Shown piece after piece: positions 9,976 to 45,105 of a DNA stretch of 64,000 nt; position 1 is the stretch's first letter; each line of letters begins with the position of its first letter. The notes under the pieces are model-generated. The model was not told where the DNA came from and searched no databases. It was given only the letters and a program-made list of their open reading frames with translations. Both the position numbers and the translations under genes were made by a program. Location: the NCBI RefSeq assembly GCF_019603315.1, contig NZ_CP080649.1, positions 1,131,501 through 1,195,500 on the forward strand, in the 5' to 3' direction. Origin of the DNA: Ruficoccus sp. ZRK36 (lineage in GTDB: Bacteria; Verrucomicrobiota; Verrucomicrobiia; Opitutales; Cerasicoccaceae).

Positions 9976-9981
9976 CCCACC

Positions 9982-10419: not shown

Positions 10420-10440
10420 TTCGCACCCCCAGCCCTCCCC

Positions 10441-11721
10441 ATGAGCAAGAAACGCAAGGTTAACCTGCCCCTGATCGAGGTGATCGCGATCAGCCTGATT
10501 GTGCATCTGGTTGCCATCATCGGCCTGGGCGGTTACACGATTTACACCGCTCTCGTCCCTGAAGACCCGGACATGGAGGCTCCGCCCCCACCGGAGAGAA
10601 TCGAGCCCAACAAGCTCCAGCAGCAGGTGCGTATCCAGCAGCAGCAGAAGCGCAGCTCGCGTCCGGTGCAGAAGATCAGCGTCACGAACGCCTCTTCGGT
10701 TAATCTGCCGGACCTCAGCGTTGATATGCCCACCGTGAATACGACGGTCGCCGTCGGCGGTAACTATGGTGCCGGTCGTCTGGACGATGACTTCGGCGGT
10801 GGCGGGATCGACTTCAGTAAGTCGGCGGTCGACTTCTTCGGGATTAAGTCCACGGGTGAGCGCGTGACCTTTATCGTCGACGCCTCCAAGTACATGCTGG
10901 AGGACAAGAAGGGCGGTCTCCCGGCCTACAACATCATCAAGGAGGAAATCTCCAATATGGTGGACAAGCTTTCCTCGGGTACGCTTTTCAATGTCATGTT
11001 CTATGACGGGGGTAAGCTGCAGGCCTACTCGACTAAACTGCTTCCGGCCACCCGCCAGAACAAGGAATTGTTCAAGGAGTGGATCAAGCCCATCAACAAA
11101 GACATCGGCAGTGTCGGTAAGCTGAGCACCAACCTCAGCATCGAGAATAAGGATATCCAGCCGATGACCGACAAGGCCAGCAACTGGGTCAAGGCCCTGC
11201 AGGTCGCGATGGAGCAGGGCAGTGACACGATCAATATCATCGTTGCGGCCTGGCAGTTCCATGGTCGTGGACTCCAGGGCGAAGAGCTTGAGCGCTGGTA
11301 CCGGAGTGTTGATTGGGGCGAAGAGCAGCAAAAAGCCTGGGACGATAGCGTGAAAAAGGCTGAAGCGTGGCTGAAGGCCGAAAACGAAAAGCGCCGCAAG
11401 GCCAGCAAGCCGGAGCGTGTCGTGACCTGGATTGGCTCCATCGTAGCCGAGCTTTTCCCAAAGGTCCGAAGAAAACCTGCTCCCTCCTTTGATGTCGATG
11501 AAGTGGACAAGTTTATCTCCAATGTCCAACGCCAGCTCTACCGTGGACGGGATGAGCGCCCGCCGCCCATCAATGTGGTGCTGTTCCTCGGCTCTGATGA
11601 AAACGAAAGTAAGAACAGCAGCGTGAAGGCGTTTGAAGACCTGGCCAAGTCCAACCGCGGCAAGTTCAGTATCCTCAAGGGGATGCAGGCCCTGAAAAAC
11701 GTCACCGGACGCAGTAGTTAG
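10441..11721 (+). CDS. TonB-like anchored protein with a degenerate VWA-type domain
   Basis: 426 aa. N-terminus like TonB/TolA: basic start, one membrane helix (about 13-37), then a proline patch (PPPPERIEP) and a Gln/Arg-rich linker with likely coiled coil. From about 135 a domain begins with GERVTFIVDASKYML, which resembles the first strand and MIDAS loop of von Willebrand A domains (usual DxSxS), but the second MIDAS serine is replaced (DASKY). A matching end strand (PINVVLFLGSDENES) is near 375-390. No TonB C-terminal domain is seen. It is the last gene of the operon and is followed by a terminator; likely the moving arm or envelope partner of the ExbBD motor. Function is inferred. Confidence 0.8.
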   Translation: MSKKRKVNLPLIEVIAISLIVHLVAIIGLGGYTIYTALVPEDPDMEAPPPPERIEPNKLQQQVRIQQQQKRSSRPVQKISVTNASSVNLPDLSVDMPTVNTTVAVGGNYGAGRLDDDFGGGGIDFSKSAVDFFGIKSTGERVTFIVDASKYMLEDKKGGLPAYNIIKEEISNMVDKLSSGTLFNVMFYDGGKLQAYSTKLLPATRQNKELFKEWIKPINKDIGSVGKLSTNLSIENKDIQPMTDKASNWVKALQVAMEQGSDTINIIVAAWQFHGRGLQGEELERWYRSVDWGEEQQKAWDDSVKKAEAWLKAENEKRRKASKPERVVTWIGSIVAELFPKVRRKPAPSFDVDEVDKFISNVQRQLYRGRDERPPPINVVLFLGSDENESKNSSVKAFEDLAKSNRGKFSILKGMQALKNVTGRSS

Positions 11722-11756
11722 TCCTCATCTGCTTTGTAAATCGCAGTTTTTACCTA

Positions 11757-11784
11757 AGACGCCATGCAAGTGGCGTCTTTTTTT
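11757..11784 (+). terminator. Rho-independent terminator of the ExbBD operon
   Basis: 8-bp perfect stem (11757-11764 with 11771-11778), loop of six, followed by a run of T to 11784. It lies 36 bases after the stop of the VWA-like gene. Confidence 0.9.
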
Positions 11785-11991
11785 ATGCCCCGCATCGGCT
11801 CTTTCGCGTCTTTCGCGGCCAGCGTCAGGAGAAGGGGCGAGAGGGGATACGCAGATCCTGCAGGCCGCCGTGTGGTCCTGTACGGCTGGCCTAGTACCCC
11901 GTTATTTCATGGTGGCCTTATCCGGTCTTCAGGCCGGAGCGGGATTGATAGCGAGTGCCCGGCGAAGAGCCTCTTTTAGGGAGACGGGGGA

Positions 11992-13251
11992 CTACTTCTT
12001 GGTCGATTCCGCGCTGGCAGTAGCTATCTCCAGCGTGCCGACGGGCAGGCTGCGCTCCTCATCCCCGCGCAGGCTGACGGCCTCGAGGCTGTAGGTCTGC
12101 AGCGGGGGAAGACCGGGCTCCTTCGGCTCGATCTGCCACAGAGCGTTGTAGCTGCTCTCGGTTTCCGTGTCTTCGCCGCCAAGTGCCTCGGCAAAAAAGT
12201 CGTAGTCGCTCATCTGGATGCCGTTGCTGGCGCATAGGTGCTTCATCAACAGTCTGCACTGGCGGGCACGGTAGCTGTTTGCATCCCCTTGATAGCGTAT
12301 GCCAAAGCTGTAGGAGGCTCCACTTGACTGCAGGCGAGTGATAAAGCCGGTTTCATCACTGACGGTGATGGTGAGCGGCTCTGAGGGGCGGGCCTTGATT
12401 GCTTCGGTCTTGTCTGTCGTATCCTGAGCCAACAGCGTTTCCAGATCACTGTTCGTCGTGAATAGAAATAGCTGAGTGTCAATGAGCTTCAGGGTGGACG
12501 CATCAACCGTGCGCAGGAGCATCCAGCACTCAAGCTGGTCGGCAGAAGGCAGCACCTGCACGTAGATCAGGGCGGTGGGGAAGGCCTTGAGCATTTGCTC
12601 CCTGTTCGGGAACTGAATCGCCGGGCCGCCGTCGATTTGGAGGTAGCTGAAGTCGCGGGTCGGCGTCGAGACGAAGCTGAAACGGTTGCCGTCCTTGGTG
12701 CGGATCTGCTCTTCAATCAGGGTGCGCAGAGGCGGCAGCTCCTTGAGGCCGTCTTCCTGGCTCGACCATGCGCCGAGCAGCTGGATACGCTTGTAGCCTT
12801 GCTCCCAGAGTTGGGCGACGAGCCCCTGCACAGTTTCGCCGAGCGAGTCCTTGGAAAACTCTACGGGCTCAAACTCCTGGGTGAGGTGCGTTGCTTCGAC
12901 AGGGGCCGGACCTTGAGAGGCCTTTTCGCGCAGGCTATCCAGTATTGTGTCTGCCTCGGCGACCTTCGCCTTACCGTCTTCGATCATGCGCTTACCGGAT
13001 TCAACGTCGCGTTTGATGTCTTCAGCATCGCGCAGGGCCGTTGCTTTGCGTTGGGTCAGCCGGGTACCGCTATCGATGAGCGAAAGTCCCTGCTTCTTGA
13101 GGTCCATGGCACGTTCCCAGGCCAGGACATCAGAAGTCCCGAGCTTGCTGACGACCTGCTCGTCGGTCAGGCCGGTATCGTTACCAAAGGCAGCAGTTTC
13201 AAAACTGAGGGTGAGGATTGCTAGCAGCAACAGGAGGGGGAGTCGGGGCAT
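11992..13251 (-). CDS. Secreted protein of unknown function with a coiled-coil segment
   Basis: 419 aa with a clear signal peptide (LPLLLLLAILTLSFETAAFG). Residues about 45-110 are charged and helical (QRKATALRDAEDIKRDVESGKRM in part), likely a coiled coil; the remainder looks globular and mixed alpha/beta. No known motif recognised. It stands alone between the convergent end of the ExbBD operon and the divergent sufT gene. The ORF is intact and has strong codon structure, so it is probably real. Confidence 0.75.
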   Translation of the reverse strand: MPRLPLLLLLAILTLSFETAAFGNDTGLTDEQVVSKLGTSDVLAWERAMDLKKQGLSLIDSGTRLTQRKATALRDAEDIKRDVESGKRMIEDGKAKVAEADTILDSLREKASQGPAPVEATHLTQEFEPVEFSKDSLGETVQGLVAQLWEQGYKRIQLLGAWSSQEDGLKELPPLRTLIEEQIRTKDGNRFSFVSTPTRDFSYLQIDGGPAIQFPNREQMLKAFPTALIYVQVLPSADQLECWMLLRTVDASTLKLIDTQLFLFTTNSDLETLLAQDTTDKTEAIKARPSEPLTITVSDETGFITRLQSSGASYSFGIRYQGDANSYRARQCRLLMKHLCASNGIQMSDYDFFAEALGGEDTETESSYNALWQIEPKEPGLPPLQTYSLEAVSLRGDEERSLPVGTLEIATASAESTKK

Positions 13252-27921: not shown

Positions 27922-28956
27922 TTACTTTTGAATTTTGGAATCGTAGACCTTTGCCACCTCTCTCTCAAGCTCAAATAAAGCAGCTAGAGAGATTCCCTGA
28001 GGAAGTCGAGCTGTGGTGGTGTCGGATGGGGTTGCGTTACCATCTGATTTTAAGACACGACCTTGCGTGGAAAATATTTCAGAGAATCTCGTCGGGGCGA
28101 TTCCCTCGAAAGGGATCAATTTTACCTTATTTGCTTCGTTCCTTTCAGTCAAACTGTCGTCATGGAGCTTGGTTGCTTTGGATTTTGGATATGGTTCTAT
28201 GAAGTATATTCTCTCGATCCCTGATAATATTATATGCCTAGCACAGTTATGGCAGGGGTATGTTGTGACGTAGATGCTTGCACCTTTAACGCGTGATGAA
28301 GCACTACCAAGTGCATTGAAAATTGCATTCATTTCCGCGTGTATCGCTCTGGAGAACTCGATTAGATCGGACAATCTTGATTTGTTTCTAAGGTAATCGT
28401 AGGCGTCTCTTTCATGCTTCTTGTCAATGATTCCAATGTCAACAAGCTCAGACACCATTTGCTCGGATATGACGTCTTTTTCATTGTCGTTCCTGCAATC
28501 CTTTGTTTCGGAGGTTCTATATTTATAACAACGTTTGTCTCCATTATTGTTTTCCGAACAATATATCCCACCGCCATACTTAGGAACGTCATTCCATCCT
28601 GTTCCTATAATTATTCCATTGTTATCTACAATTGAAGCTCCCACTTGCCGAGATAGGCAAGCGCTGTTTAGTCCTGCCGACCAAGCAGAAAACATTGCCC
28701 TCTCCGATATGTCGGGCGTAATTGTCTTTGTGCCAAATATGGCATCAAAAAACCTCTTGATGCGTAGGTTTGAGTTGGTGTTTGTGCTTACATCGATAAA
28801 AAAGTCTGAAAGCGGGAATAACCCCCGTACGTCTTGTCCATGGTCGTCGATGTCACGGAAATCACGATCAATTAATGATTCGGCATTTGAACGCGTATCT
28901 CCTCTGCTGGTAAGCGCTTTTATACGACTTTCTCGATCAGAATATACCCCGATCAT
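27922..28956 (-). CDS. AvcD-like anti-phage dCTP/dCMP deaminase, C-terminal part
   Basis: 344 aa from the first ATG after the amber codon (29047). Cytidine-deaminase zinc site: HAE in RAIHAEMNAIFNA and PCxxC in TYPCHNCARHI, as in deoxycytidylate deaminases. The reading frame upstream is open through RVCYIIDSLKN and FYMIGVYS, a bridge conserved in AvcD proteins, so the ATG here is an artefact of the TAG and not a real start. In AvcID systems, AvcD depletes dCTP during phage infection and is held by the AvcI RNA. The gene is visibly A+T rich against the host background and lies outside the tRNA-Arg element. If read through, the full product has about 510 residues. Confidence 0.85.
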   Translation of the reverse strand: MIGVYSDRESRIKALTSRGDTRSNAESLIDRDFRDIDDHGQDVRGLFPLSDFFIDVSTNTNSNLRIKRFFDAIFGTKTITPDISERAMFSAWSAGLNSACLSRQVGASIVDNNGIIIGTGWNDVPKYGGGIYCSENNNGDKRCYKYRTSETKDCRNDNEKDVISEQMVSELVDIGIIDKKHERDAYDYLRNKSRLSDLIEFSRAIHAEMNAIFNALGSASSRVKGASIYVTTYPCHNCARHIILSGIERIYFIEPYPKSKATKLHDDSLTERNEANKVKLIPFEGIAPTRFSEIFSTQGRVLKSDGNATPSDTTTARLPQGISLAALFELEREVAKVYDSKIQK

Positions 28957-29046
28957 ATAAAAAAGCTTCGTATATACTTTTTTAAAAATATGACGCTCAT
29001 ATTTGTTTTTTAGAGAGTCAATTATATAGCAAACTCTCTTTGGTTG

Positions 29047-29049
29047 CTA
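29047..29049 (-). other. In-frame amber stop inside the AvcD-like gene
   Basis: TAG follows ...RKKIGE and precedes QPKRVCYIID in the same frame. CAG or AAG one base away would restore a sense codon. It could be a nonsense mutation, suppressed in the host, or a sequencing error. Confidence 0.85.
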
Positions 29050-29454
29050 TTCTCCGATTTTCTTTCGATGTTCGTATATATTGCTTATAATATGTTCGGC
29101 GAGAAATTCTTTATTGTGTTTTTCTCTAAGGGCATTTCCAGTGTTTATAAGCTTGCTTTTTCTCGCAGAGATGGAGCCGCTTTTAAATTCTGGATTATGT
29201 TGAGGGGCGGGGTCAAGAGTGTCGGAGAGTATTTCAATTACATTACTTACTTTGTATGTCTTGACCTGATATCCCCTCGATTCCATTTCGATTTTAATAG
29301 CTTCAGATACGTCTTTGATTGGGGCTCCAATTGGTCCACAAAGGCCTAACACGATCTCATTCGTAATAGTCGATTCGACGAACTCGAGAGAGTTTGTTGC
29401 CGATGTGCTTCCTGTCTCGACTTGCGATTTCGTTTGCCTTGCTGTGTCTGCCAT
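29047..29454 (-). CDS. AvcD-like N-terminal P-loop-type domain, cut by an amber codon
   Basis: 135 aa from MADTAR at 29454 (ATG 29526 is the longer alternative). After a polar leader comes VLGLCGPIGAPIKDV, the deoxynucleoside-kinase-like N-terminal domain of AvcD, whose P-loop lacks the usual GKS/T, as is common in that family. It ends at TAG 29047-29049. The next codons in the same frame continue the protein without any gap, so this and the deaminase part are one gene: 29454 down to 27922. No frameshift is needed, only a single-codon change. Confidence 0.85.
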   Translation of the reverse strand: MADTARQTKSQVETGSTSATNSLEFVESTITNEIVLGLCGPIGAPIKDVSEAIKIEMESRGYQVKTYKVSNVIEILSDTLDPAPQHNPEFKSGSISARKSKLINTGNALREKHNKEFLAEHIISNIYEHRKKIGE

Positions 29455-29779
29455 TATTCCAATGTTTTGGTGTTTGAGGTACATTAAATTATGTGACATC
29501 TCTTTAGTTTTACAATGAAATATCAATATAATTTAATTGTTCCACTGCGATGCGGCTACTTCTTGATGTTGGCAAAAAGGGTGCATGTCATGCCTCAATT
29601 TAGCACAGCATTTAAGCGCCTGCGCTATGCGTGCTAGAGCCTTGCAAAATCTACTTTATGTCACGTCGAAGGCTATTTCCCCGTTTTTTCCCAAATTGGG
29701 GTCTTTAAGGCCCTTTTTTGCCTTTTTGAGTCGCAACTGGATTTGTGGCTCTAGTCGTTGTTTGACAACGATTTAAAAA

Positions 29780-29823
29780 TGGTGCCCCCACCGAGACTCG
29801 AACTCGGATTAACGGTTTAGGAA
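29780..29823 (-). repeat. attL: displaced 3' end of tRNA-Arg
   Basis: 44 bases identical to 45031-45074. It reads as the tRNA CCA end, acceptor, T-arm and into the anticodon side, then diverges at 29824. It is a tRNA fragment left by site-specific integration and is not functional as a tRNA. Confidence 0.92.
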
Positions 29824-29860
29824 GCCTCGAATTGTAGCCTATTTTCAATGACTTAAGAAA

Positions 29861-29886
29861 CTGGGGCTCTATTGGGGCTCTATTTT
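29861..29886 (+). repeat. 26-base repeat near the left end, copy 1 of 2
   Basis: Identical to 44903-44928 in the same orientation, and itself built of two tandem 11-base units (GGGGCTCTATT twice). It lies 37 bases inside attL, immediately upstream of the integrase start codon. Likely an integrase or excisionase arm-type site and possibly also a promoter operator. Confidence 0.75.
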
Positions 29887-29928
29887 GACTTTACTTTTCC
29901 CTCCTATGGCGGCTTAAGTGCCGTTAAC

Positions 29929-31245
29929 ATGGAAGACTACCGCAGGCGTCCACGGAAACGGGCAACAGGTGCACCGGGAGAACCCGTACTCCAATCGTAC
30001 AATGAAAAAGCCCGCCCTGATCTAAAGTGGCGGGTGAAGTACAAGCAGGAAGGCGCGTGGAAAGTTCGGAAATTTAAGCTGAAGAAAGAGGCCCAGCGCT
30101 TCCACAATGAAAAGGTGGCCGAATTTCGGAACCTCGGTGTGGAAATGGCCAATGCTCTTTCGGAGGAGTTAAAGCGCGAGGCGCTGGACGCTCAGGAAGT
30201 GCTCGGAGGACTTTCCCTTGTCGAAGCTGCAAAACACTACCGTGCGTACGTTCAGCGGACTTCTAGCGGGGAAAAGGTAACCAACCTCGTGCAAGCCTTC
30301 CTGCGTCACCTTAGAGATGATCGAGGAGTGGGCCCCCGACACCTCAATGACGTCGCCGGGAGGCTGGGGCGCTTCGCTGAGGATTTTGGCCAGCACCACC
30401 CTGCCGCCATCAGTCCCACCGAAGTTGCGGACTGGTTGGGAACCTTAAAGGCCAGCATTAAGCCGAAAGGCGCAACCGAGCGTGAAGTGTTGGAGGTGGA
30501 TTTGTCCGTGCAGAGTCGCCGACACTATCGCGCTGCGCTGCATAACTTCTTTGCGTGGTGTGTTGATAACGACCACTGTGCCTCTATTCCCGTGCGTGGC
30601 AGGCCACCTCGTGTACGCGAAGCACAGTCGCTGGCAATCTGGACGCCAACTGAGCTGGCGCGAGTTATTCAAATACTTTTCGACTGGAGCCCTGACCAAA
30701 CGAAGAGTAAGGAAGGTAAGCGCACTGGCAATTACCCGACCAAGGTGCCCGAGAAAATGGATATCCTTGCTAACATTGTGATTTGTGCCTTTGGTGGGCT
30801 ACGGCAAAGCGAGTTCGAGCGCTTGCACTGGGAGCATATCCACCTCGCGCACGACATTATCGACCTGTCGGATATCACGACCAAGAACACGCCGAGTAAC
30901 CGCCATGTTACGATCCGTCCTACGTTGCGTGCATGGCTGGAGGTTTTCTTCGCCTTTGAGTCCGGCCCGTGCATCAAGCCGAACTTTCCGAATCGGCTAG
31001 CAGCGTTTCGACAACACCTGCGCGACAAGGGCATGGAGTGGAAGCAAAACGTGCTGCGCCACTCTTTCGCCAGTTATCTCATGGGCGAGCTACAGGACGC
31101 CGCGAAGGTCGCAGCCCAAATGGGCCACGTTGGTCAAGGTACTTTATACAAGCACTACTCCAAGCCCGTCTACCGCGATCACGCGACCGCCTACTGGAGC
31201 CTGACCCCCGATAGTCTAACTCTTAAAGCGGTGGATGCTATATGA
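29929..31245 (+). CDS. Tyrosine-type site-specific integrase
   Basis: 438 aa from ATG 29929 (an in-frame TTG at 29872 would lie in the repeat and is less likely). N-terminal arm-binding part (1-80, basic: RRRPRKRATG), core-binding SAM-like domain (about 100-205), catalytic domain with Arg I in GGLRQSEFERL, the NVLRHSFASYL box (Arg II) and GHVGQGTLYKHYSK with the nucleophile Tyr. It catalyses integration at tRNA-Arg. Located 100 bases inside attL. Its stop overlaps the start of the next gene. Confidence 0.93.
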   Translation: MEDYRRRPRKRATGAPGEPVLQSYNEKARPDLKWRVKYKQEGAWKVRKFKLKKEAQRFHNEKVAEFRNLGVEMANALSEELKREALDAQEVLGGLSLVEAAKHYRAYVQRTSSGEKVTNLVQAFLRHLRDDRGVGPRHLNDVAGRLGRFAEDFGQHHPAAISPTEVADWLGTLKASIKPKGATEREVLEVDLSVQSRRHYRAALHNFFAWCVDNDHCASIPVRGRPPRVREAQSLAIWTPTELARVIQILFDWSPDQTKSKEGKRTGNYPTKVPEKMDILANIVICAFGGLRQSEFERLHWEHIHLAHDIIDLSDITTKNTPSNRHVTIRPTLRAWLEVFFAFESGPCIKPNFPNRLAAFRQHLRDKGMEWKQNVLRHSFASYLMGELQDAAKVAAQMGHVGQGTLYKHYSKPVYRDHATAYWSLTPDSLTLKAVDAI

Positions 31246-32315: not shown

Positions 32316-34499
32316 ATGAATGACCATAGTCAAATTATCAGTGGGGTAAATGAAAAAATAGGCGATCGGATGGTTAGTATCTATCCGCCATTAAGTAGTG
32401 GACCCTCAAGGGTGCCGCTCGAGAATACGCCCATTTGGGATGCGTTGATGGGTATAAAAAATGGCATCTACAAGGAGGTTGTACAGAAGGTTCGCAAGGC
32501 AGAAGGTAAGGTTAAAAAAAGGAAGGCTAAGATGGAATTGCCATCCCTCATGCCTACTGGGGTTTTTGAGAACGGATTAAAAGACATGGTGCCTGATCCG
32601 TTCTCAGGCCTGCTTCAAGTTGACATTGATGACGTTCCTGATGTTCAGGAAGTGAAAAGCCAATTGATGTCGGATCCACATATATACTCTTGTTTTGTTT
32701 CACCATCAGGAAGAGGCGTAAAGGGGCTAATTCGTGTCCCGCAAGACTCCGACCCTTTAATGGCGAAACAGGCAGTGGTTCGCCACCTGAGTGCAGTACA
32801 CGGTCTCGAAATTGATGAGGGGCCTTGTGGCATAAATTATCGGATGTATGTGTCCTATGATCCCGAATTATATATCAATAAGGACTGCAGGGAGCTCCCA
32901 CTGGAGTTTTGTGAGGAAAAGGATCAGCGAGACTTGGTTGTTGGGGGCTCAAAAGAATCATTTCGCGAATACAACCTCTTTCCTCTGGATGAAATAAAGT
33001 GCGCACTTGGCGCAATACCGGATCGCCCTGACTATGATCTGTGGATCAGGTTGGCAAATGCGGTACGGGATGCTGCTGGTACCGAAAATGCAGTGGAACT
33101 ATTGAAGGCTTGGTCTCCGGAGGAAAGACCGGGTGAGTATGGATTTAAAATCTGCGAATTACCCTTGGTAAAGGCTAGTTGCTTGTTTGAGGAAGCTTAT
33201 CGGAACGGTTGGAGTCCCGAAGTTTACTACGAAAATTCATCAAACCGATATTGGCTGATGGATGCCGACAGTAAGTTTCGTACTTACACGCAATCGCACC
33301 TGACCGATCAGCTAAAACGCTATGGTCTCGATGGCGAGCAGGCTGCTAGTGTCGCACGCAGTGCCCGTTTCAGGTTTTCATTAGACTGCGTCTTAAATGT
33401 TGCGGGAATGCCGAAGGGGCTGAACGAAATGAACGGCAAAAAGCTGTTAGTTCCGCGTGGACCGAACCTCATTGAGCCCCACCAAGGCGAGTGGGAAACC
33501 ATCAAGGCCATTTTTGTAGGCATGTTAGGCGAAACGCAGTATGAGTATTTTATATGGTGGCTGGCCTTATCCTTGCAGTCGTTGTACGGCGGCAATTGGC
33601 AGCCTGCGCAGGTTTTAGCCTTGGTGGGGCCGACGGCTTCCGCGAAAAGCCTTACTCAGTCCATCCTTACTCTGCTGTTTGGCGGTACGGAAGCACGTGT
33701 GATGCAGGCTGTCTCGGGCTCGACTCCGTTTAACGGCGATTGGGCGGAAGCTGCACACTTGGTCATTGAAGACGAGTTTTCTGATAACAATAAATCGACC
33801 CGAGATAGGATAAAGGAACGGGTCAAAGAGATAGCCGTTAACAGGAGGCACCGCATCCACCCTAAGGGCAAAGATGCCATTGATGTAACTCCGTTTTGGC
33901 GTCTCACGATCTCATGTAATCCTGTGCCGGAATCGTTGGCCGTCATGCCGCACCTAGATGAATCGTCGATGAATAAAATTAGTATCCTAGGTACCAAGCG
34001 GTTCGAGATGCCTATGCCTGCGGCTACTGCGAAAGAGAAGGAGAAACTTTGGTCTGCGGTCAGGCGGGAAGCGCCTGCACTTATACATGATTTGCTATCG
34101 TGGGGAAACCCGCCAGCGCACCTGCGAGATGAGGAGAATCGCTTCGATTTAGCAGCATACCACGACGAAGGTGTAAAGCGCATGATTGAGGATATGTCGC
34201 AAGAATTTGAGTTGCTGAATTTGATCATCGACGGAATGCGTAAAGGCCATTTTGACGTTGAGGATGAATTCGACGGTGGGCACTCGGAAACAAATTTAAA
34301 GATCGAAGTTACCGCTGCTGAGGTGCACGAAGTGCTCCGCTACAGGGGGCTGCCTAGTTGGATGAATACAAGGCAGATTGGCAAAATGCTGAGCTATCTT
34401 ACGAAGATTCGGCCTGAATATGTAACAACCATAAAATCTAGCCGCTCAAACGGAAACAGGTATCAGATAGTGGGCAATGGTGGTGAAATTATCTGGTAG
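32316..34499 (+). CDS. Primase-helicase (VirE-N/PriCT_2/D5-type) of the element
   Basis: 727 aa replicase-like protein. N-terminal VirE-N/BT4734-like domain (about 60-205; LLQVDIDDVPD, CFVSPSGRGVKGLIRV), a PriCT_2-like helical segment (about 225-275; LWIRLANAVRDAAG), then a superfamily-3-type helicase core with Walker A LVGPTASAKSLTQS (about 437-447), Walker B HLVIEDEF and ISCNP as motif C. Such fusions replicate phage satellites, plasmids and integrative elements. The stop overlaps the first iteron-like repeat. Confidence 0.86.
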   Translation: MNDHSQIISGVNEKIGDRMVSIYPPLSSGPSRVPLENTPIWDALMGIKNGIYKEVVQKVRKAEGKVKKRKAKMELPSLMPTGVFENGLKDMVPDPFSGLLQVDIDDVPDVQEVKSQLMSDPHIYSCFVSPSGRGVKGLIRVPQDSDPLMAKQAVVRHLSAVHGLEIDEGPCGINYRMYVSYDPELYINKDCRELPLEFCEEKDQRDLVVGGSKESFREYNLFPLDEIKCALGAIPDRPDYDLWIRLANAVRDAAGTENAVELLKAWSPEERPGEYGFKICELPLVKASCLFEEAYRNGWSPEVYYENSSNRYWLMDADSKFRTYTQSHLTDQLKRYGLDGEQAASVARSARFRFSLDCVLNVAGMPKGLNEMNGKKLLVPRGPNLIEPHQGEWETIKAIFVGMLGETQYEYFIWWLALSLQSLYGGNWQPAQVLALVGPTASAKSLTQSILTLLFGGTEARVMQAVSGSTPFNGDWAEAAHLVIEDEFSDNNKSTRDRIKERVKEIAVNRRHRIHPKGKDAIDVTPFWRLTISCNPVPESLAVMPHLDESSMNKISILGTKRFEMPMPAATAKEKEKLWSAVRREAPALIHDLLSWGNPPAHLRDEENRFDLAAYHDEGVKRMIEDMSQEFELLNLIIDGMRKGHFDVEDEFDGGHSETNLKIEVTAAEVHEVLRYRGLPSWMNTRQIGKMLSYLTKIRPEYVTTIKSSRSNGNRYQIVGNGGEIIW

Positions 34500-34710: not shown

Positions 34711-36363
34711 ATGCCGCCCAAGAAAAAATCCTCCCCGAAGAAGACCAACGGCGACCTCGGCTTCGAGGCCAAGCTCTGGCTTGCTGCCGACAAACTCCGT
34801 AATAATATGGACGCGGCCGAGTACAAACATGTGGTGCTCGGGCTAATTTTTCTCAAGTATATCTCCGATGCCTTCGACGAGATGCACGCGAAGCTCGTTG
34901 CGGGCGAGGGCGATTACGACGGAGCCGATCCCGAGGACCCGGACGAGTACAAGGCCGAGAACATCTTTTGGGTGCCCCCTGCTGCCCGTTGGAAATATAT
35001 CCAAGGTAGCGCCCATCAGCCCGAAGTCGGCAAGATCGTGGACGACGCCATGGTCGCCATCGAGCGAGACAATAAGGGGCTCAAGGGCGTCCTGCCCAAG
35101 GACTACGCACGCCCCGCGCTTGATAAGCACCGTCTGGGCGAGTTGATCGACCTGATCGGTACCATCGGCCTCGGTGACGCCGAAAACCGTTCCAAAGACA
35201 TCCTGGGGCGCGTCTACGAGTACTTCCTGAGCCAGTTCGCCAGCGCCGAGGGCAAGAAAGGTGGCCAGTTCTACACCCCCCGCTGTGTCGTGCAGTTACT
35301 GGTCGAAATGCTGGCCCCCCGGCCCGGCTCCCGCATCTACGACCCCTGCTGCGGCTCGGGCGGCATGTTTGTGCAGTCCGAGAGGTTCATCGAGGAGCAC
35401 GGCGGGCGCATCGGGGACATCGCTGTCTACGGGCAGGAGAGCAATCCCACCACGCGCCGCCTTGCCGCCATGAACCTCGCGATTCGCAGTATCGAGGCAA
35501 ACCTCGGTCCTGAGCATGCTGATACCTTCCGGCGCGATCTCCACCCCGATTTGCGGGCCGACTACGTTATCGCCAACCCGCCCTTTAATGACTCCGACTG
35601 GTTCCGCAAGGACGACGACGTGCGTTGGCAATTCGGCACCCCGCCGAAAGGAAATGCCAACTTCGCGTGGGTGCAGCACTTTGTTCATCACCTTGCGCCG
35701 GGTGGCAGCGCGGGCTTCGTTCTCGCTAACGGTTCCATGTCCTCTAACCAGTCCGGCGAGGGGGACATCCGCCGCGCCCTCATCGAGGCCGATTTGGTGG
35801 ACTGCATGGTCGCGCTCCCCGGCCAGCTCTTTTACTCTACCCAAATTCCTGTATGCCTCTGGTTTTTGACTAAGGACAAGTCGGCCCGTGTCGTTAGCTC
35901 GGGCGAAAAGGACGATCTGCCGGAACGAGCGCGTGACCGCCGGGGCGAGACACTCTTTATCGATGCCCGTAAGATGGGCTCTATGCTCGACCGCGTCCAT
36001 CGCGAGCTAACTAACGAGGATGTCGCGCGCATTTCTCGTACCTACCATAGCTGGCGTCTTGATATTCCGATGGGTGAGGTAAAGCACGGCGATGCTATTG
36101 CAATTGTTGATCCCGACCCGGAATGGATTTACCAAGATATCCCCGGCTTCTGCAAATCTGCCACCAAGGATGAAATAGCCAGCCACGGCTACGTCCTAAC
36201 GCCGGGTCGTTACGTAGGGGCAGAGGCCACCGAGGACGATGGCGAGCCCTTCGAGGAGAAGATGCCGCGCCTAGTGGCCGAGCTCGACGCCCAGTTCGCC
36301 GAATCCGCCAAACTCGAAGCCGCCATTCGGCAGAACCTCAAGGAGCTGGGCTATGGTGGCTAA
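34711..36363 (+). CDS. hsdM: Type I restriction-modification DNA methyltransferase subunit
   Basis: 550 aa N6-adenine methylase subunit. N-terminal HsdM_N helical domain (about 14-150), SAM site [14 protein letters not shown] (motif I, about 211-223) and catalytic VIANPPFND (motif IV). AAGGAG before the overlapping hsdS supports coexpression. Base use here is closer to the host than in the genes around it, so this gene may have another history than the TIR and Abi-C genes. Confidence 0.96.
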
Positions 36364-37666
36364 CGTGAAGACGAAAAAAACGCTGCATGTTCCTGTTGGT
36401 TTTTCGGGACCAGACACTTGGAGTTGGTCGTCGCTCGAAAATGTCTGCGATGGGATATTTGATTGCCCTCACTCAACACCGAAACTGACGGATTCTGGTC
36501 CCTATGTCGTTCGAACTCAGGATATCATCACTGGGGTTTTTCGCAGGGAAGAAGCTGCAAAGGTTTCAGAAGAAACATACGCGACTCGTATTAAAAGAAC
36601 TGAGCCTCGCTACGGCGATCTACTGTACAGCAGGGAAGGTACATACTTTGGCATTGCGGCCGAAGTTCCAAAGGAGACTCGTGTCTGCCTTGGCCAGCGA
36701 ATGGTTCTTATTCGGCCAAAGTCTACAAGGATAGACTCGCGATTTCTGAAGTACTGGTTGAATTCATCGGTCATGGCGCGGCATATCCTTGGTTTCCGCG
36801 ATGGCTCTGTTGCCGAGCGCCTTAACCTTCCTACGATTCGAAGTCTGCCCACCTTGCTACCCCCACTGGCGGAGCAGAAGCGCATTGCTCACATTCTCGG
36901 TACGCTGGATGATAAAATCGAGCTTAACCGCCGGATGAATGCCACGCTCGAACAGATGGCGAGGGCCCTCTTTAAGAGCTGGTTTGTGGACTTCGACCCC
37001 GTCCGCGCCAAGCTCGACGGGAAAGCCCCTACCGGCCTCGACCCAGCCACCGCCGCGCTCTTCCCCTCCACCTTCCAAGACTCCCCCCTCGGCCCCATCC
37101 CGCAGGGCTGGGAAGTAGTAAAAATTAGAGACATTGCCGATAACTCACGCAGGAGCATTAAGCCCGAGCAAATTGATGTCGAATTGCCTTACATCGCACT
37201 TGAACACATGCCACGCCGATGCATCGCTCTGGACTCATGGGGTAGATCTGAGGGTATAGCTTCCGGTAAGCTCCACTTTGCCAAGGGGGATATTCTATTT
37301 GGTAAGCTTCGTCCTTACTTCCACAAAGTTGGCGTCCCAGCCGTTTCTGGTATCTGCTCAACTGATATTCTCGTCATTACGCCAAAAGGGCCTGAATGGT
37401 TGGGCTTCGCGCTTTGCCACTTGTCTAGCCACGAGCTTGTGAACTACACGGATTTGGCTTCTACTGGGACCAAAATGCCTCGTACTAACTGGAAGGATAT
37501 TTCCGCATATGAAATAGTCTTGCCACGGAAGGAGATCGCCGAGGCATTTAACCGGCAGATTAAGCTATATATCGATCAAATCCACTTAAACATACACCAA
37601 TCCCGCAACTTGGAAACCCTCCGCGACACGCTGCTGCCGAAACTACTTAGTAGAGGAGGGGATTAA
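36353..37666 (+). CDS. hsdS: Type I restriction-modification specificity subunit
   Basis: 437 aa with two target-recognition domains (about 15-165 and 245-400) separated by conserved helix [21 protein letters not shown] and closed by a second helix. Determines the bipartite recognition site; the site itself is not predictable by eye. The ATG lies inside the hsdM end with AAGGAG seven bases before it. Target domains differ from each other as usual. Confidence 0.95.
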
Positions 37667-37672
37667 TTTATC

Positions 37673-38189
37673 GTGGCAAAAGAATTAGAGATCGTATGCC
37701 CCTATGTAATACCCTATCAGAAGGCTAGCACTGGGTCGGGTAAGCATATCGGAAAAAAAAGAATCCAAGACATTTTGGGATGATCCGGACGTCGCACGGG
37801 TGGCTGGCAAGCAAGGTTGCTATGTCTTTGCGTTGAAAGCGGGGAGGGGGCACAAACCATGGTATGTGGGTAAGGCGACAAAGTCGATGTATCAGGAGTG
37901 TCTGTCATTGGATAAACTAAACAAGTATAACGAAGTTTTGTTTAAGGGAAATAAAGGGACTCCGGTTTTGTTTTTCATAGTTTTAGGCGGCAATAAGAAA
38001 AAAGTGCCCAAGGGCGATATTGATGAGATGGAACCCTTTTTCATTCAAAATGCGCTCACGAAAAACCCCGATTTGACAAACATTCAAAAGGCCAATGTTC
38101 CTGCGTGGACGGTAAAGGGTGTTGTCCGTGGTGGAAGGGGGAAACCAAAACCTAATACGACTTCGTTTCGTAAAATGATGGGAATATAA
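37673..38189 (+). pseudogene. GIY-YIG-like protein, frameshifted at an A8 run
   Basis: Two open pieces join at eight A residues (37753-37760). The GTG at 37673 (behind AGGAGGGG at 37654) opens VAKELEIVCPYVIPYQKAS and is stopped at 37781; from the A run on, the other frame continues ESKTFWDDPDVARVAGKQGCYVFALK to 38189. With seven As the whole is one ~171-aa protein. The part after the shift shows GCYVFAL...PWYVGKA, which recalls the GIY and YIG strands, with a later helix. A GTG at 37800 could make a 129-aa product alone. The gene is nested between hsdS and hsdR. Confidence 0.7.
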
Positions 38190-38207
38190 CCAATAGATCG
38201 TTGTGCA

Positions 38208-38702
38208 ATGAAAGTTTTTATTAGCTATAGTGTGGCCGATACGGCGCTTGTTTGGAAGGTCTCAGAATCAATCAAGGATAAAGCTGAGGTTATTTATTGG
38301 GAGGATGCTCACCGTCCTGGGAATCAAGCATGGGAGCAAATTGCTACATGGATTGATGGGTCTGATTTGGTTTTAGTGATTATTACCGATCGGACGGTCA
38401 ATAGGGCTATGTCGGTAGGGCAAGAAGTTGGTCATGCGAGGAGAGCAAACAAGAGAATTGTGCCATTGGTTGCTAGCACAGTTGACATAAAGGACCTCGG
38501 TTTTCTTGCTGGAATCACGTATATATCGCTAGACATGAGCGATGCAGCGTCCGCACTGGCATCGCTCCAAAGGGAGGTTGATAAGTTTTCAAAAGAAGTT
38601 CAGCAGAAAAGGGCGCAGTTGGAGCATCGGAAGAGCAATCAAGAAGGCGTTGTTGCACTTGCCGGAATTGCACTCTTGCTCTACATGCTCTCGCAAAACT
38701 AA
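38208..38702 (+). CDS. TIR-domain protein with C-terminal membrane helix
   Basis: 164 aa. TIR fold: MKVFISYSVADTALVWKV (first strand, FISYS), IYWEDAHRPGN, IDGSDLVLVIIT, then the region SVGQEVGHARRANKRIVPL with the Glu that is catalytic in NAD-cleaving TIRs. C-terminal hydrophobic stretch (about 146-160, VALAGIALLLYML) suggests anchoring in the inner membrane. TIR proteins in defence degrade or cyclise NAD on activation. A+T rich relative to hsdM. Followed by the Abi-C gene after 15 bases. Confidence 0.88.
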   Translation: MKVFISYSVADTALVWKVSESIKDKAEVIYWEDAHRPGNQAWEQIATWIDGSDLVLVIITDRTVNRAMSVGQEVGHARRANKRIVPLVASTVDIKDLGFLAGITYISLDMSDAASALASLQREVDKFSKEVQQKRAQLEHRKSNQEGVVALAGIALLLYMLSQN

Positions 38703-38717
38703 ACGTATTAACCGGTG

Positions 38718-39560
38718 ATGAGTGAAGATATTATTAGTATCAAAACACGTCAGTTATTTCGTGAATACATGGTTAATTGGGTTCTTCGCGAGATTGCTGA
38801 TGCGTTTGACGCAGCAAGGATACTATGTGACTTGAGCTATGACCCGCCAGTACATGGACAGCGTCGTGCCTTGGTTGAAAGGTACTACAAGGCTATAGAG
38901 TGGAGCGACGGTGGCCAAGTGGCTCGGGTATTAAAAGTTTTCGAGTCGGTGCTGTATGAATCTGAAAGGCTTGCGAATGATGATGCAAATAACGACAAGG
39001 AAAGATCGACGGAGGTATTTGATAAGTTAAAATGGGGCCTTGGTTGTGATGGCTTTCATTGGACAGGTAGGCGGATTGTCAGAAATGCTGGGACATCTAC
39101 CTTGGATGATCTGAAGGAAGTCGCTGCTACATTCGATGCAAAGCATCTCATCGAGCAAATTGCCAGGATCGAGGGCTCAATTGATGCGGACCCATCGCTA
39201 GCAATTGGTACATCTAAGGAGCTAATAGAGACCTGTTGTCGCACTATTCTTAGTGAAAGAGGCCAACCAGTAGAAGGCTCGCCCGATGTGCAGACTTTGA
39301 CAAAAATGACCCTTAAAGAACTTAACTTGGTGCCAGAGGGGATTTCTAAGTCGGTAAAGGGTGCAGATGTCGTCAAGCGAATACTAAGCAATTTAGGTTC
39401 TATTGGAAATGGGCTTGGTGAGTTAAGAAATTTGTACGGTACCGGTCATGGCAAGGATGGCAAAGCAGTTGGATTAAAGCCTCGGCATGCGCGTTTAGCA
39501 GTAGGTGCTGCCGCCACGCTGACTACATTTCTCTTTGCTACACACGAAGAAACCAAGTGA
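38718..39560 (+). CDS. Abortive-infection (Abi-C) family protein
   Basis: 280 aa from ATG 38718 (GTG at 38715 is one codon earlier). N-terminal helical part (1-160) of unknown role; C-terminal Abi_C domain (about 165-275) with [23 protein letters not shown] and the conserved end [10 protein letters not shown]...[13 protein letters not shown]. Abi_C proteins are found with defence genes; catalysis is not defined. Its stop region overlaps the hsdR GTG start at 39557, which argues that the three nested genes are cotranscribed with hsd. Confidence 0.87.
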
Positions 39561-42500
39561 TTTTTGTTGATATGCTTCTTAACGAATCCACAGTCGAAGA
39601 TGCAGCCCTCGCTTGGTTTGGGGAGCTGAGGTATGCGGTGGGTCATGGACCGGAGTTTGCTCCCGGAGCGGGGCCGTCGGAGCGGGAGTCGTTTAGTGGG
39701 GTGTTACTGGAGAAGCGGCTTCGTGAGGCAGTATCGCGGCTGAACCCGAAAATTCCTACTGAGGCGCAGGAGGACGCTTTACGGAAGGTAAAGCTCATTG
39801 CGACGCCTTCGCTTGTACAGACCAACCGTACTTTCCACAAGATGCTGCGGGATGGGATCGAGGTGGAGTACAGGCGGCCCGACGGTTCGATTGCGGGCGA
39901 TCATGTTAAACTGATCGACTATGCGTATCCCGGACGAAACGACTGGTTGGTCGTTAACCAATTTACTGTGGTCGAAAATGGCCATGAGCGTCGCCCGGAT
40001 ATCGTCGTTTATGTAAATGGGCTTCCGCTATCTGTCGTTGAGCTCAAGAATGCGGCGAACGAAGATGCCACGATCTGGTCAGCCTACCGGCAACTCCAGA
40101 CGTATAAGGCTGAAATCCCGTCGCTGCTGCATTATAATGCAACTCTCGTTGTTTCTGACGGCTTGGAAGCTCGCATGGGCTCGCTGACAGCGAATCAAGA
40201 GTGGTTCAAGGTCTGGCGTACTGTAAGCGGGCTAGAGGACGCGCCTGACGCCGCGCTGGAGCTTGAGACTCTAATACGCGGTGTCTTCGATCAGCGCCGC
40301 TTTCTGACACTGCTGGAGCATTTCATCCTTTTCGAGGAAGATACCGATAGCGACCGCCTGCATAAGATCATTGCTGGCTACCATCAGTTTCATGCGGTGA
40401 ATGCCGCTGTCGATGAAACTATCCGGGCCAGCGGTATGGGCCAGGATGAGGGCACGCGTGGCGAGTCGGGTGACCGGCGTGCGGGAGTCGTCTGGCATAC
40501 CCAAGGCAGCGGTAAGAGCTTTTCCATGCTTTTCTACGCGGGGCGTATCATCCGGCATCCGGTGATGCAGAACCCCACGCTGGTTGTCTTGACCGACCGC
40601 AACGACCTTGACGACCAGCTTTTCGGGCAGTTTCAGCGTTGCCACGAAATTCTAGGTCAGACGCCTTTACAGGCTGATCGTCGCGAGGAGCTTCGAGAGC
40701 TGCTGACCCGAAATAGCGGAGGGGTGATCTTTACCACTATTCATAAGTTTCTTCCCGAGACGGGCGAAGATATGCCAGCCCTGAGTGATCGCCGCAACAT
40801 TGTCGTAATTGCGGATGAGGCGCACCGCTCGCAATATGGATTTAAGGTCCGAGTTAATAAGGAAACAGGCGAAAGGCGTATCGGGTTGGCTGTCAGTATG
40901 CGACAAGCTTTGCCCGGAGCTACCTTTATCGGATTTACGGGGACGCCCATTGAAAAAACGGACGCCAATACACGAGCGGTTTTCGGGGACTACATCAGCG
41001 TATACGACATCCAGCGTGCCGTGCACGACGGTGCCACCGTGCCGATTTACTACGAAAGTCGCATCTCCAAGCTTCGCATGAACCGAGAGGCTCTACCGAC
41101 GCTGGATGAGGAGTTTGACGAGATAACCGAAGGGCAGGAATTTACCGCCAAGGAAAAGATCAAAACCAAGTGGGCAGCGTTGGAAGCGCTTGTGGGTGAT
41201 CCAAAGCGGGTTGAGTTAATCGCACAGGATTTAGTTCAGCATTTCGAGCGACGTACAGAGGCGATGGAGGGCAAGGCGATGATCGTTTGCATGAGCCGTC
41301 GTATCTGCGTCGATATGTACAACGCCTTGATTAAGCTGCGTCCAGAATGGGCCAGCGCAAAAGATGACGATGTCGAAGCTGAGCGCCAAAAGGACTGTCT
41401 TGCGAGGGTCATCATGACGGGTAGTGCTTCGGATGGCCCTGAGTGGCAACAGCACATCCGTACCAAGGATAAGCGCCGAAAACTGGCTACGCGTTTCAAG
41501 GATACGAAAGACCCATTTCGTATCGTGATTGTGCGCGATATGTGGCTGACGGGCTTTGACGCGCCTTGTATGCACACAATGTACCTGGACAAGCCGATGC
41601 AAGGTCATGGCCTAATGCAGGCCATTGCCCGTGTTAACCGTGTCTTTAAGGATAAACCGGGCGGTCTCATCGTTGATTACCTTGGCTTGGCGGACCAATT
41701 AAAGCGTGCTCTGGCTACATACACGGATAGTGGCGGTACGGGAAGCCCGACCATCGACACTGATCGTGCGATCGGTGTTATGCGCGAGAAGCACGAAGTC
41801 GTCTGCGACATGATGCATGGCTTTGATTGGTCAAAGTGGACTTCAGGCACGCCAGCGGAGAGACTCGCGTTGTTGCCTTCAGGGCAAGAGCATGTCTTAC
41901 AGCTTGCTGAAGGTAAGGCGAGATTCACACAGGCTACTTTGGAATTGTCGCATGCATTCGCGCTATGTGCTGCCAGTGAAGCTGCTGGCGAAATTCGCGA
42001 TGATGTCGCATTCTTTCAGGCTATATCCGCAGCACTGAATAAGAAAACTCTCCAAGGGCAGAGGTCCCCCGAAGAGATCGATGCGGCTGTCCGCCAGCTT
42101 GTATCCAAGGCAATTGCGCCCGACGGCGATGTCATCGATGTATTCTCCGCAGCAGGCCTCGCAAGGCCCGATATCGGAATCCTAGATGACCGATTCCTTG
42201 CTGAAGTACGGGGCCTAAAACACAAGAATGTGGCGGCAGAGTTGTTGGAGAAACTCCTAAAGGATCAGATTAAGGTTCGGGCCAAGCGTAACCTTGTTCA
42301 ATCTGAGCAGTTTTCCGATAGACTGCAAAAAACCCTTAACAGTTACCACAATCGGGCCATTGCGACGCAAGAGGTGATCGAGGAGTTGATCAGACTTGCC
42401 CATGATCTCGATGCTGCAACTAGGCGGGGGGAAGAGCTTGGACTAACGGATGACGAAGTTGCGTTTTATGATGCTTTGGCTGCAAACGGCACGGCTCGGG

Positions 42501-42724
42501 ATGTCATGGGCAACGAAAAGCTGAAAGTTATCGCTGCCGAGCTGATTTCTAAGGTGCGCAAAAGCACGACCATCGACTGGCACCTGAAGGAAGGTGCTAG
42601 AGCTAAAATCCGCGTGTTGGTTAAGCGCATTCTTAATAAGCATGGATACCCACCCGACTTGCAGGCTGAGGCCGTCCAGACAGTGCTTAAGCAGGCAGAA
42701 TTACTTTGTAAGGACTGGGTATAG
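39557..42724 (+). CDS. hsdR: Type I restriction endonuclease subunit
   Basis: 1055 aa. N-terminal PD-(D/E)xK nuclease with [23 protein letters not shown] (Asp, and E-x-K of VELK), superfamily-2 translocase with Walker [21 protein letters not shown] and later motifs ([15 protein letters not shown]), then a helical C-terminus. Cuts DNA at sites far from the recognition site when unmethylated DNA is met. GTG at 39557 overlaps abi-C; ATG 39572 is an alternative. The subunit is intact, so R, M and S can form a complete enzyme. Confidence 0.95.
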
Positions 42725-42742: not shown

Positions 42743-43657
42743 ATGCCGCTACCTCCATACGACAAAATGACTCTCCCTGTTCTCCGATTTATCGCCGAGA
42801 AGGGAGTGCATAAGATTTCAGAGATCGAACCTTTGGTCGTCGATTATTTCAGCGTATCGCCGGATGAGAGCGCTGAGACACTTCCTAGCGGTACAGAAAC
42901 TAGACTGCATAACCGTGTAAGCTGGGCGGTCTACGACCTGTATAAATCCGGTCTTCTTAAGCGAGTAAAGCGGGGACATTACGATATTACTGAGCACGGC
43001 CAAAAGGAGTTACAGTCCCCACCCGAGCAAATGGACCGTACCTATTTGCGAAAATTTGATAGTTTCCGAGAGTGGGAGGAAAAAAGTGCCAGAAAAAGCA
43101 AGACCTCCAGTCCAGTTAATAACACTGCCGAGACATCAGGCACGCCAGAAGACCAAATGGCGGAGGCTTTTGCTGCTATGCAGGTAGCTCTTGCTGACGA
43201 ATTGCTGGAGAAGGTGAAAGAAATTAGTCCTGTAGGCTTTGAGCAACTCGTTCTGAACCTAATGATCCGCATGGGATATGGTGGGTCACGAGAGGCATCA
43301 GGATTTCTGACAAAAGCAAGCGGAGATAACGGGATTGATGGTCTTATAAACGAGGATCGCCTTGGGCTGGATGTTATCTATTTGCAGGCCAAGCGGTATA
43401 CGGAGAATAACATTAGTGAGCCACAGATACGTGAATTTGTCGGTGCCCTTGCTGGTAAGCAGGCAAACAAGGGCGTCTATATTACGACTACGGCGTTTTC
43501 TCGGCAGGCTATTGCATTTGCTGAGCGGGTACAGCAGAAGGTTATCCTGATTGATGGCGAAAAGCTTGCAGAGCTAATGATCGAGCATGATTTAGGTGTT
43601 TCGACGAAGACCGAGTACAAGATTAAGCGTTTGGATACCGATTTCTTTGATTTCTAG
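42743..43657 (+). CDS. Mrr-type restriction endonuclease
   Basis: 304 aa: N-terminal winged-helix (Mrr_N; about 5-95, RVSWAVYDLYKSGLLKR) and C-terminal Mrr_cat nuclease domain (about 165-290) with GFEQLVLNLMIRMGYG and the catalytic core DGLINEDRLGLDVIYLQAKRY (Asp plus QAK). Cuts methylated DNA in relatives. Together with a type I system it could give opposite-mode protection: one cuts unmodified, the other modified DNA. Starts 19 bases after hsdR. Confidence 0.93.
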   Translation: MPLPPYDKMTLPVLRFIAEKGVHKISEIEPLVVDYFSVSPDESAETLPSGTETRLHNRVSWAVYDLYKSGLLKRVKRGHYDITEHGQKELQSPPEQMDRTYLRKFDSFREWEEKSARKSKTSSPVNNTAETSGTPEDQMAEAFAAMQVALADELLEKVKEISPVGFEQLVLNLMIRMGYGGSREASGFLTKASGDNGIDGLINEDRLGLDVIYLQAKRYTENNISEPQIREFVGALAGKQANKGVYITTTAFSRQAIAFAERVQQKVILIDGEKLAELMIEHDLGVSTKTEYKIKRLDTDFFDF

Positions 43658-44000: not shown

Positions 44001-44900
44001 TTGAGTGTGCCGGACAGCGTATCGGGTAGGATGCTGTTACGCGAAATACCCCGGTTTGAGCCCTATCTTCGCGAATCCACGAAGCTTGTGCGCCATATTG
44101 AGCGCAAGTGGGATGTGCGGATGCTTATCGAACATGGGCAGTTCGACTGCTACCAAAACTATCAGGTGCATCCCGTTTTTCACGACTGCTCCTACATATT
44201 GTCGTTCTTGGGAGAGGAGCAGGGGCGGGCACGCTTCATTGGGCTTTACAAAAAGACAGGAGTTGAGGGGCCTACTAGCTTTTCTGCGCCGAGTGGCTTC
44301 CCTTATCCACAGATGTTTGAGTCTCCGAGGCCACACTACATGTACGCGTTTGAAAAGCTTGATGGCTTTAGGGATTTAGAGGGGCGCTTGGTCATTGATT
44401 GGGGAGGGGCCACGCTATCGTGGCATCAGTGGTTTCGTCCCAGGAGCAGAGCTAAGGAAGTGGCCGAGATCAGCCCGGTTGGGTATGTTAAGCCCTTTCC
44501 GGGGTATGAGGATTTCGTTTTAACCTATCGTGAGCTTCGGCAGCTAGTTGCCCACCCGCAATCGAACAGGGAGTGGTATGACCTGCTTAGCTCAGTGGCT
44601 GGCGTCTACCTGATCCTAGATATTCGTGACGGCAAGCAATACGTCGGGAGTGCCTACGGCGAAAAAGGACTCTGGGGGCGGTGGGCGACCTATGCCAAAA
44701 CCGGGCACGGCGGTAATAAGCTACTGGCCGAGCTTTGCGAGCAGGACCAACAGGCTCCACAGCACTTTCGTTTTACTGTTTTACGGACCCTGCCACGTAC
44801 GATGGCTAAGAATCGCGTTATTGCCGTAGAGACTCTCTACAAGGAGAAGTTGGGCTCCCGGGCATACGGACTAAACGCCTCGGAGAGTAAGCGCGGGTAA
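44001..44900 (+). CDS. GIY-YIG nuclease family protein
   Basis: 299 aa from a TTG at 44001 (GTG 44007 also possible). N-terminal domain (1-190) of unknown kind; C-terminal GIY-YIG domain about 195-290 with SVAGVYLILDIRDGKQYVGSAYG (GVY-x10-YVG form) and YAKTGHGGNKLLAEL, then the Glu-bearing helix AVETLYKEKLGSRAYGLN. Such fusions are seen in defence islands. It is the last gene of the element, ending two bases before the right 26-base repeat. Confidence 0.88.
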   Translation: MSVPDSVSGRMLLREIPRFEPYLRESTKLVRHIERKWDVRMLIEHGQFDCYQNYQVHPVFHDCSYILSFLGEEQGRARFIGLYKKTGVEGPTSFSAPSGFPYPQMFESPRPHYMYAFEKLDGFRDLEGRLVIDWGGATLSWHQWFRPRSRAKEVAEISPVGYVKPFPGYEDFVLTYRELRQLVAHPQSNREWYDLLSSVAGVYLILDIRDGKQYVGSAYGEKGLWGRWATYAKTGHGGNKLLAELCEQDQQAPQHFRFTVLRTLPRTMAKNRVIAVETLYKEKLGSRAYGLNASESKRG

Positions 44901-44902: not shown

Positions 44903-44928
44903 CTGGGGCTCTATTGGGGCTCTATTTT
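44903..44928 (+). repeat. 26-base repeat near the right end, copy 2 of 2
   Basis: Identical to 29861-29886, same orientation; 102 bases inside attR. Internal tandem 11-base units as in copy 1. Presence at both ends of the element fits arm-type recombinase sites. Confidence 0.75.
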
Positions 44929-45030
44929 TACGCGAAAAGGCGGTTTTACGCAGTTTATAGCGGCTGGGAAGTAGATCCAGTTGATGTGTGTAAATCGCTG
45001 TTGGTCAGCGTATTTAGTAGTAAAATAGAC

Positions 45031-45074
45031 TGGTGCCCCCACCGAGACTCGAACTCGGATTAACGGTTTAGGAA
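45031..45074 (-). repeat. attR: 44-base direct repeat shared with attL
   Basis: The right copy is the 3' part of the intact tRNA-Arg gene (CCA end, acceptor, T-arm and into the anticodon loop). Direct-repeat identity with 29780-29823 is complete across 44 bases and ends at 45075. Confidence 0.92.
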
Positions 45075-45105
45075 ACCGCGGTTCTATCCATTGAACTATG
45101 GGGAC
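45031..45105 (-). tRNA. tRNA-Arg (anticodon CCT)
   Basis: 75 nt with encoded CCA. Acceptor GTCCCCA pairs with TGGGGGC, D-stem GTTC/GAAC, anticodon stem GCGGT/ACCGT with loop TTCCTAA (anticodon CCT, reads AGG), T-arm CCGAG/CTCGG around TTCGAGT. It serves as the integration site of the element to its left; integration kept the gene complete. Confidence 0.95.

Follow-up and report, generated by a model that had tools for sequence, protein, structure and literature searches.

The type I restriction-modification operon found in a 64,000-nucleotide stretch of Ruficoccus sp. ZRK36 DNA (hereinafter, the window) carries, between hsdS and hsdR, three additional genes that are best explained as exchangeable cargo. 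The interpretation that we consider probable is that an integrative island brought in this operon and that its hsdS-hsdR slot has gathered independent modules, namely, a HEPN RNase of the Abi_C family, a membrane TIR protein and a decayed GIY-YIG-like nuclease, the first two of which would act as abortive back-ups in a layered defence that begins with restriction. Because the three families were not found together again in the sampled genomes or scanned viral contigs, they look less like a novel machine of three components than like separate phage-defence genes gathered at a known hotspot of insertion. The presence of HEPN toxins in restriction operons and the use of the hsdS-hsdR gap as a cargo hotspot are already published (PMC3710099, PMC12255303, PMC11411939); the new part is the recurrent link between hsd operons and small TIR proteins with a membrane helix, and no earlier description of TIR genes in hsd operons was found in the open-licence literature.

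The island and its restriction operon

A tRNA-Arg gene in the window is the integration site of a 15.3-kb island that spans the type I operon (Table 1). The operon is complete, Pfam and PADLOC identifying each of HsdM, HsdS and HsdR as an intact protein, and the gene order proposed in an earlier note made from the sequence alone, hsdM-hsdS-GIY-YIG-like-TIR-Abi_C-hsdR, is borne out by the Pfam assignments and the coordinates, all these genes being co-oriented and tightly spaced. The same note had the end of Abi_C overlapping the GTG start of hsdR. The Abi_C stop codon indeed shares 4 nt with this GTG, but since HsdR of an Ignavibacteria relative (L005) starts where the window has the ATG 39572, the overlap is possible but uncertain. 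The G+C content of the cargo genes is 0.44-0.46, compared to 0.60 for hsdM and 0.54 for hsdR.

Table 1. Features of the island and of the type I operon, in window coordinates
Feature	Position	Strand	Basis and remarks
attL, copy (50 nt) of the tRNA-Arg 3' part	29780..29829	+	96% identity to 45031-45080
Tyrosine integrase of the island	29872..31245	+	Pfam Phage_integrase 4.6e-08; adjoins attL
Island replication/primase-like protein (BT4734-like_N, DUF5906)	32316..34499	+	Pfam
hsdM, type I methyltransferase	34711..36363	+	Pfam N6_Mtase 3e-104, HsdM_N
hsdS, specificity subunit	36353..37666	+	Pfam Methylase_S, PADLOC Specificity_I; 11-nt overlap with hsdM
GIY-YIG-like gene, frameshifted	37673..38189	+	Two frames joined at an A-run; relatives L005 and L006 intact
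A8 run, site of the frame change	37753..37760	+	Sequence; absent from relatives
TIR protein (164 aa) with conserved E73 and a hydrophobic helix at the C-terminus (147-163)	38208..38702	+	Pfam TIR_2 4.5e-13, alignments, hydropathy
Abi_C protein, 281 aa; N-terminal domain and HEPN 138-281, R238-x6-H245	38715..39560	+	Pfam Abi_C 8.9e-26, alignment, model, fold comparison
hsdR, type I restriction subunit	39557..42724	+	Pfam HSDR_N, SWI2_SNF2, T1RH-like_C
Mrr-type IV restriction enzyme	42743..43657	+	Pfam Mrr_cat 4e-33, Mrr_N
UzuA-like protein, C-terminal GIY-YIG-like domain	44001..44900	+	PADLOC UzuA 2e-88; Pfam GIY-YIG below cut-off
tRNA-Arg (CCT), integration target; 3' part is attR	45031..45105	-	

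Several other features of the island and its surroundings are worth recording. A small HTH gene on the opposite strand also lies inside the island, and the UzuA-like gene at the right end is a second gene of the GIY-YIG type, distinct from the nested one. Just within both island ends, a 29-nt direct repeat (29861-29889 and 44903-44931, 97%, 15 kb apart) possibly represents the arm sites of the integrase. Just beyond attL, on the minus strand (27922-29526), there is a cytidine/deoxycytidylate-deaminase gene that is split by an in-frame stop; its upstream part looks kinase-like by eye and resembles AvcD-type defence proteins. A genome of the same family (L152, G391) has a related hsdM, with a DNA identity of 76%, that is broken next to a fragment of a transposase.

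The cargo genes

The GIY-YIG-like gene, which the earlier note placed after hsdS, is present there with its motifs, but its reading frame is broken. The frame that opens at GTG 37673 closes at TGA 37781-37783, and the conserved core lies one frame over, extending to 38189; by contrast, the relatives from Ignavibacteria (L005; its core is 73% identical) and Desulfobacterales (L006; 54%) consist of one open frame each and lack the A8 run. Judging by this comparison, the gene is frameshifted at the A8 run and is not intact, and the shift could be a homopolymer error of sequencing or assembly. Programmed frameshifting at the run is disfavoured because the run is absent from the relatives. A shorter product that starts at GTG 37800 would keep the core motifs and may have residual activity. 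The protein is recognized by neither Pfam nor NCBIfam nor PADLOC, and its assignment rests on the motifs and a weak structural match: GCY and YVG, corresponding to the GIY and YIG motifs, along with the catalytic Glu and Asn, are conserved across the family, and in the comparison of the model, which is poor (pLDDT 51), the best row, itself weak, is T4 EndoII (Z 3.9), further rows being Hpy188I and UvrC. Foldseek placed Hpy188I at rank 2, a result on which, given the low confidence of the model, we do not rely.

The TIR protein, with a TIR_2 score of 50.2 bits against the Pfam cut-off of 28, belongs to a small family in which the C-terminal hydrophobic segment is present throughout. In alignments of six members, E73, within the S...E helix motif, is invariant, and its position suggests a catalytic role. 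The protein is probably an NAD-consuming enzyme that is held at the membrane by the C-terminal helix. Like Thoeris ThsB and Pycsar PycTIR, it has a TIR domain with a conserved glutamate, and both gave weak profile matches; unlike them, it is a single small TIR with a C-terminal hydrophobic helix that is accompanied by neither ThsA nor a cyclase. Specifically, the 32-46 kb part of the window encodes no SIR2/SLOG or other ThsA-like protein and the ThsB_TIR match is below the Pfam cut-off, and Pfam and PADLOC detect no nucleotide cyclase among the annotated operon neighbours. The broad TIR profile detects in the phylum mostly large multidomain TIR proteins, and the small membrane family accounts for only three of the phylum profile matches (E below 1e-70). 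The protein search of the plasmid collection with the TIR sequence produced no match, and neither did the phage collection; the PDB sequence search with it yielded a single match, the TIR domain of a receptor (E 0.0019), and such searches with the GIY-YIG-like, TIR and Abi_C proteins found no usable relatives of any of them.

For the third protein, the Abi_C score (PF14355) is 90.3 bits compared to the curated cut-off of 24, and the R238-x6-H245 motif, which falls within the R-x4-6-H pattern, is invariant in 11 homologues. In the model (pLDDT 77), the seven best matches to residues 138-281 are HEPN structures, followed by Csm6; subject to the caveat that applies to helical bundles, the HEPN matches range from Z 11.9 to 7.3, with the first clearly unrelated row at 7.1. 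Among these, 1o3u, 3o10 and 2hsb score about 12, the HEPN domain of AbiA 10.2 and Csm6 7.8. Foldseek had listed unrelated helical proteins ahead of HEPN, a ranking that VIA-align resolved. On the combined strength of the motif and the modelled four-helix fold, Abi_C is a HEPN domain protein, presumably with RNase activity, as the TIR protein presumably has NADase activity. Its N-terminal domain, which probably senses or restrains the HEPN part, is of a type seen also in Streptomyces plasmid proteins and in L142 (34% over residues 2-281); within the 281 aa, Pfam detects no N-terminal ABC (AAA_13) ATPase fusion of the kind found in PrrC and RloC. The L142 gene itself (6001-6843) is a stand-alone Abi_C with the N-terminal type of the window, located in a prophage-like contig on the strand opposite to the flanking phage genes.

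The state of these genes bears on whether the cargo has any present function. That it is decaying or passively carried baggage appears improbable: the GIY-YIG frameshift, the split deaminase gene beside the island and the hsdM interrupted by a transposase in the same-family genome are what one would expect of such baggage, but the TIR and Abi_C genes are both intact, have their conserved motifs and retain operon spacing, and the hsd genes and Mrr are intact as well.

Cargo of the hsdS-hsdR gap in other genomes

The premise of the earlier note that defence genes are nested in hsd operons is supported. Most of the related operons of the phylum have variable cargo in this gap: it exceeds 300 bp in 25 of the 31, and the genes within it encode Fic, RhuM, Schlafen-AlbA_2, AAA_15/21, DUF1016/YhcG, DUF1828/1829 and other proteins. 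None of the 31 contains the trio. Direct evidence of cassette exchange comes from three of the viral-contig loci, L035, L040 and L042, whose HsdRs are 98-99% identical; even so, the L035 TIR shares no more than 41% identity with the TIRs of the other two, and the gene that precedes it is different. Conversely, the TIRs of L041 and L040 are 70% identical despite 26% identity between the respective HsdRs. The exchanged TIRs, the variable gap content and the G+C of the cargo all point to a slot filled by independent modules. Even if the cargo is merely co-mobilised, these loci demonstrate exchange of defence genes in the hsdS-hsdR gap, and L035, L040 and L042 amount to a natural swap series of different TIRs with near-identical HsdR.

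The small TIR-membrane family is nested in hsd operons at all five viral-contig loci (L035/L039, L040-L043), which count as two hsd lineages because three of them share one hsdR and two another, on contigs that are putatively viral. The HsdRs of these lineages are 24-40% identical to that of the window and the neighbours are different, so with the window the association extends to three hsd lineages. The TIR gene occupies either the hsdS-Schlafen interval or the hsdM-hsdS interval, in the latter case with a start-stop overlap, and neither Abi_C nor GIY-YIG is found beside it at any of the five loci. Outside hsd operons, TIR-membrane genes follow SIR2-HerA (L038) or adjoin a SIR2-like gene (L037).

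Abi_C shows a similar pattern. Thirteen Abi_C genes exceed the Pfam cut-off among the 388 sampled genomes of the phylum, and six of these are next to or near hsdS in type I operons, in the order hsdS-AbiC-hsdR (G218, G305), hsdS-AbiC-Schlafen-hsdR (G210), hsdS-AbiC-AAA_13 (G279) or hsdS-473aa-AbiC (G052), the window being the sixth case and the only one of the six with TIR. Among the annotated neighbours of plasmid Abi_C genes, which are variable, there is no TIR. In G279 (L175, 5873-8904), a short Abi_C immediately follows hsdS and is itself immediately followed by an AAA_13 (PrrC/RloC-like) gene.

The relatives of the GIY-YIG-like gene are scattered over still other contexts. The one in L005 is located in an hsdMS...R operon with SIR2-HerA, another adjoins a SIR2-like gene (L007), and a third resides on a Polymorphobacter plasmid beside other genes (L004); no defence neighbour was seen for those in L006 and L009, and the neighbourhood of the one in L008 ends at the contig end. 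Searching the plasmid collection at the protein level with the GIY-YIG fragment gave no match, and scans of viral contigs for this family gave no informative relative. The L005 cargo as a whole (3334-12165) is large and multi-module, with SIR2-like, HerA, GIY-YIG relative, DUF3037 and DUF4357 genes between hsdS and hsdR.

Thus, all three families are found again in type I operons, but separately and each in other company, and neither the trio nor any pair of its members was found together again in the sampled genomes or scanned viral contigs. The sample came mainly from one phylum, complemented by collection scans with short peptide patterns; a conserved trio may therefore have escaped detection elsewhere. 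The earlier note had suggested that the trio may be one dedicated effector system, in which TIR acts at the membrane and Abi_C and GIY-YIG serve as sensor or nuclease, and that this system is a back-up to restriction. The close, co-oriented spacing in one operon and the common low G+C are consistent with this proposal, but it is largely refuted and we now consider it very unlikely, given that the side-by-side search for the three families recovered random partners at every other locus examined, that the GIY-YIG frame is broken, and that Abi_C with the same N-terminal type is a stand-alone gene both on a Streptomyces plasmid and in a contig of prophage-like character. Nor is the sensor role supported for either protein, Abi_C being itself a HEPN effector and GIY-YIG being frameshifted.

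Possible roles of the TIR and Abi_C proteins

The part of the earlier proposal that is supported is that TIR and Abi_C are abortive-type effectors and a plausible back-up to restriction, as proposed for HEPN proteins in restriction operons, AbiJ among them, by Anantharaman et al. 2013 (PMC3710099). The hsd genes and the cargo would probably be expressed as one transcript, restriction would hit the incoming DNA first, and Abi_C and TIR would halt the cell if the infection proceeds, as PrrC or DarTG2 do within their own type I operons. We infer the triggers of Abi_C and TIR, and the abortive outcome; the effectors may either sense the failure of restriction or only ride along with it.

In EcoprrI-PrrC, the gene for a HEPN RNase lies within a type I hsd operon and backs up blocked restriction (PMC3710099, PMC12707154); the Abi_C of the window, likewise a predicted HEPN RNase embedded in an hsd operon, differs in lacking the ABC ATPase domain, in belonging to another HEPN family and in its location after hsdS, and any coupling to Hsd would be hypothetical. 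With the HEPN toxins of the AbiJ/Abi_C group, it shares the HEPN fold with R-x6-H, the Abi_C family, the type I operon and the proposed second line of defence, but it retains the N-terminal domain of the stand-alone forms and adjoins a TIR-membrane gene. Independent modules inserted in type I operons are exemplified by DarTG2, placed between hsdS and hsdR in the RRDM island described in the RptR paper, where the hsdS-hsdR gap is considered a potential recombination hotspot (PMC12255303), and by TgvAB of V. cholerae, an embedded pair that was tested and is independent of restriction (PMC11411939); the effectors in the window, TIR and HEPN, differ from both DarTG2 and a GmrSD-like pair.

The coupled alternative is that TIR-membrane and Abi_C are dedicated guards, bound in an inactive state by HsdS, HsdM or HsdR and freed when a phage anti-restriction protein strikes, as is PrrC with EcoprrI. 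Each of the two is nested repeatedly in hsd lineages that are unrelated, with start and stop codons that in many cases overlap or adjoin, and the PrrC precedent and the HEPN proposal (PMC3710099) lend it credence; nevertheless, we consider this explanation rather unlikely since both are also found outside hsd operons (TIR in L037 and L038; Abi_C in L030, L033 and plasmids) and since the Abi_C of the window has the stand-alone type of N-terminal domain, whereas AbiJ without this domain is more frequent in restriction-modification operons (Anantharaman et al. 2013; PMC3710099). Also rather unlikely, although worth stating for the TIR family by itself, is the idea that small TIRs bearing a membrane helix at the C-terminus are dedicated to guarding type I enzymes and spread among them by horizontal exchange, being silenced by the intact Hsd complex or triggered by its translocation intermediates or phage anti-restriction proteins, whereupon they would drain NAD at the membrane. 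If so, the family would be the TIR counterpart of PrrC. Should the TIR-hsd link prove functional, interchangeable suicide effectors (HEPN RNases, TIR NADases, DarTG, PrrC) would have a general platform in restriction operons, and a single backbone fitted with many cassettes could show whether the failure of restriction is itself the trigger.

A separate observation concerns L041 (5588-8240), in which a single hsd operon has the small TIR-membrane gene ahead of hsdS and, between hsdS and hsdR, a second and different TIR gene of the CAP12-like type (PF10137, 7e-32).
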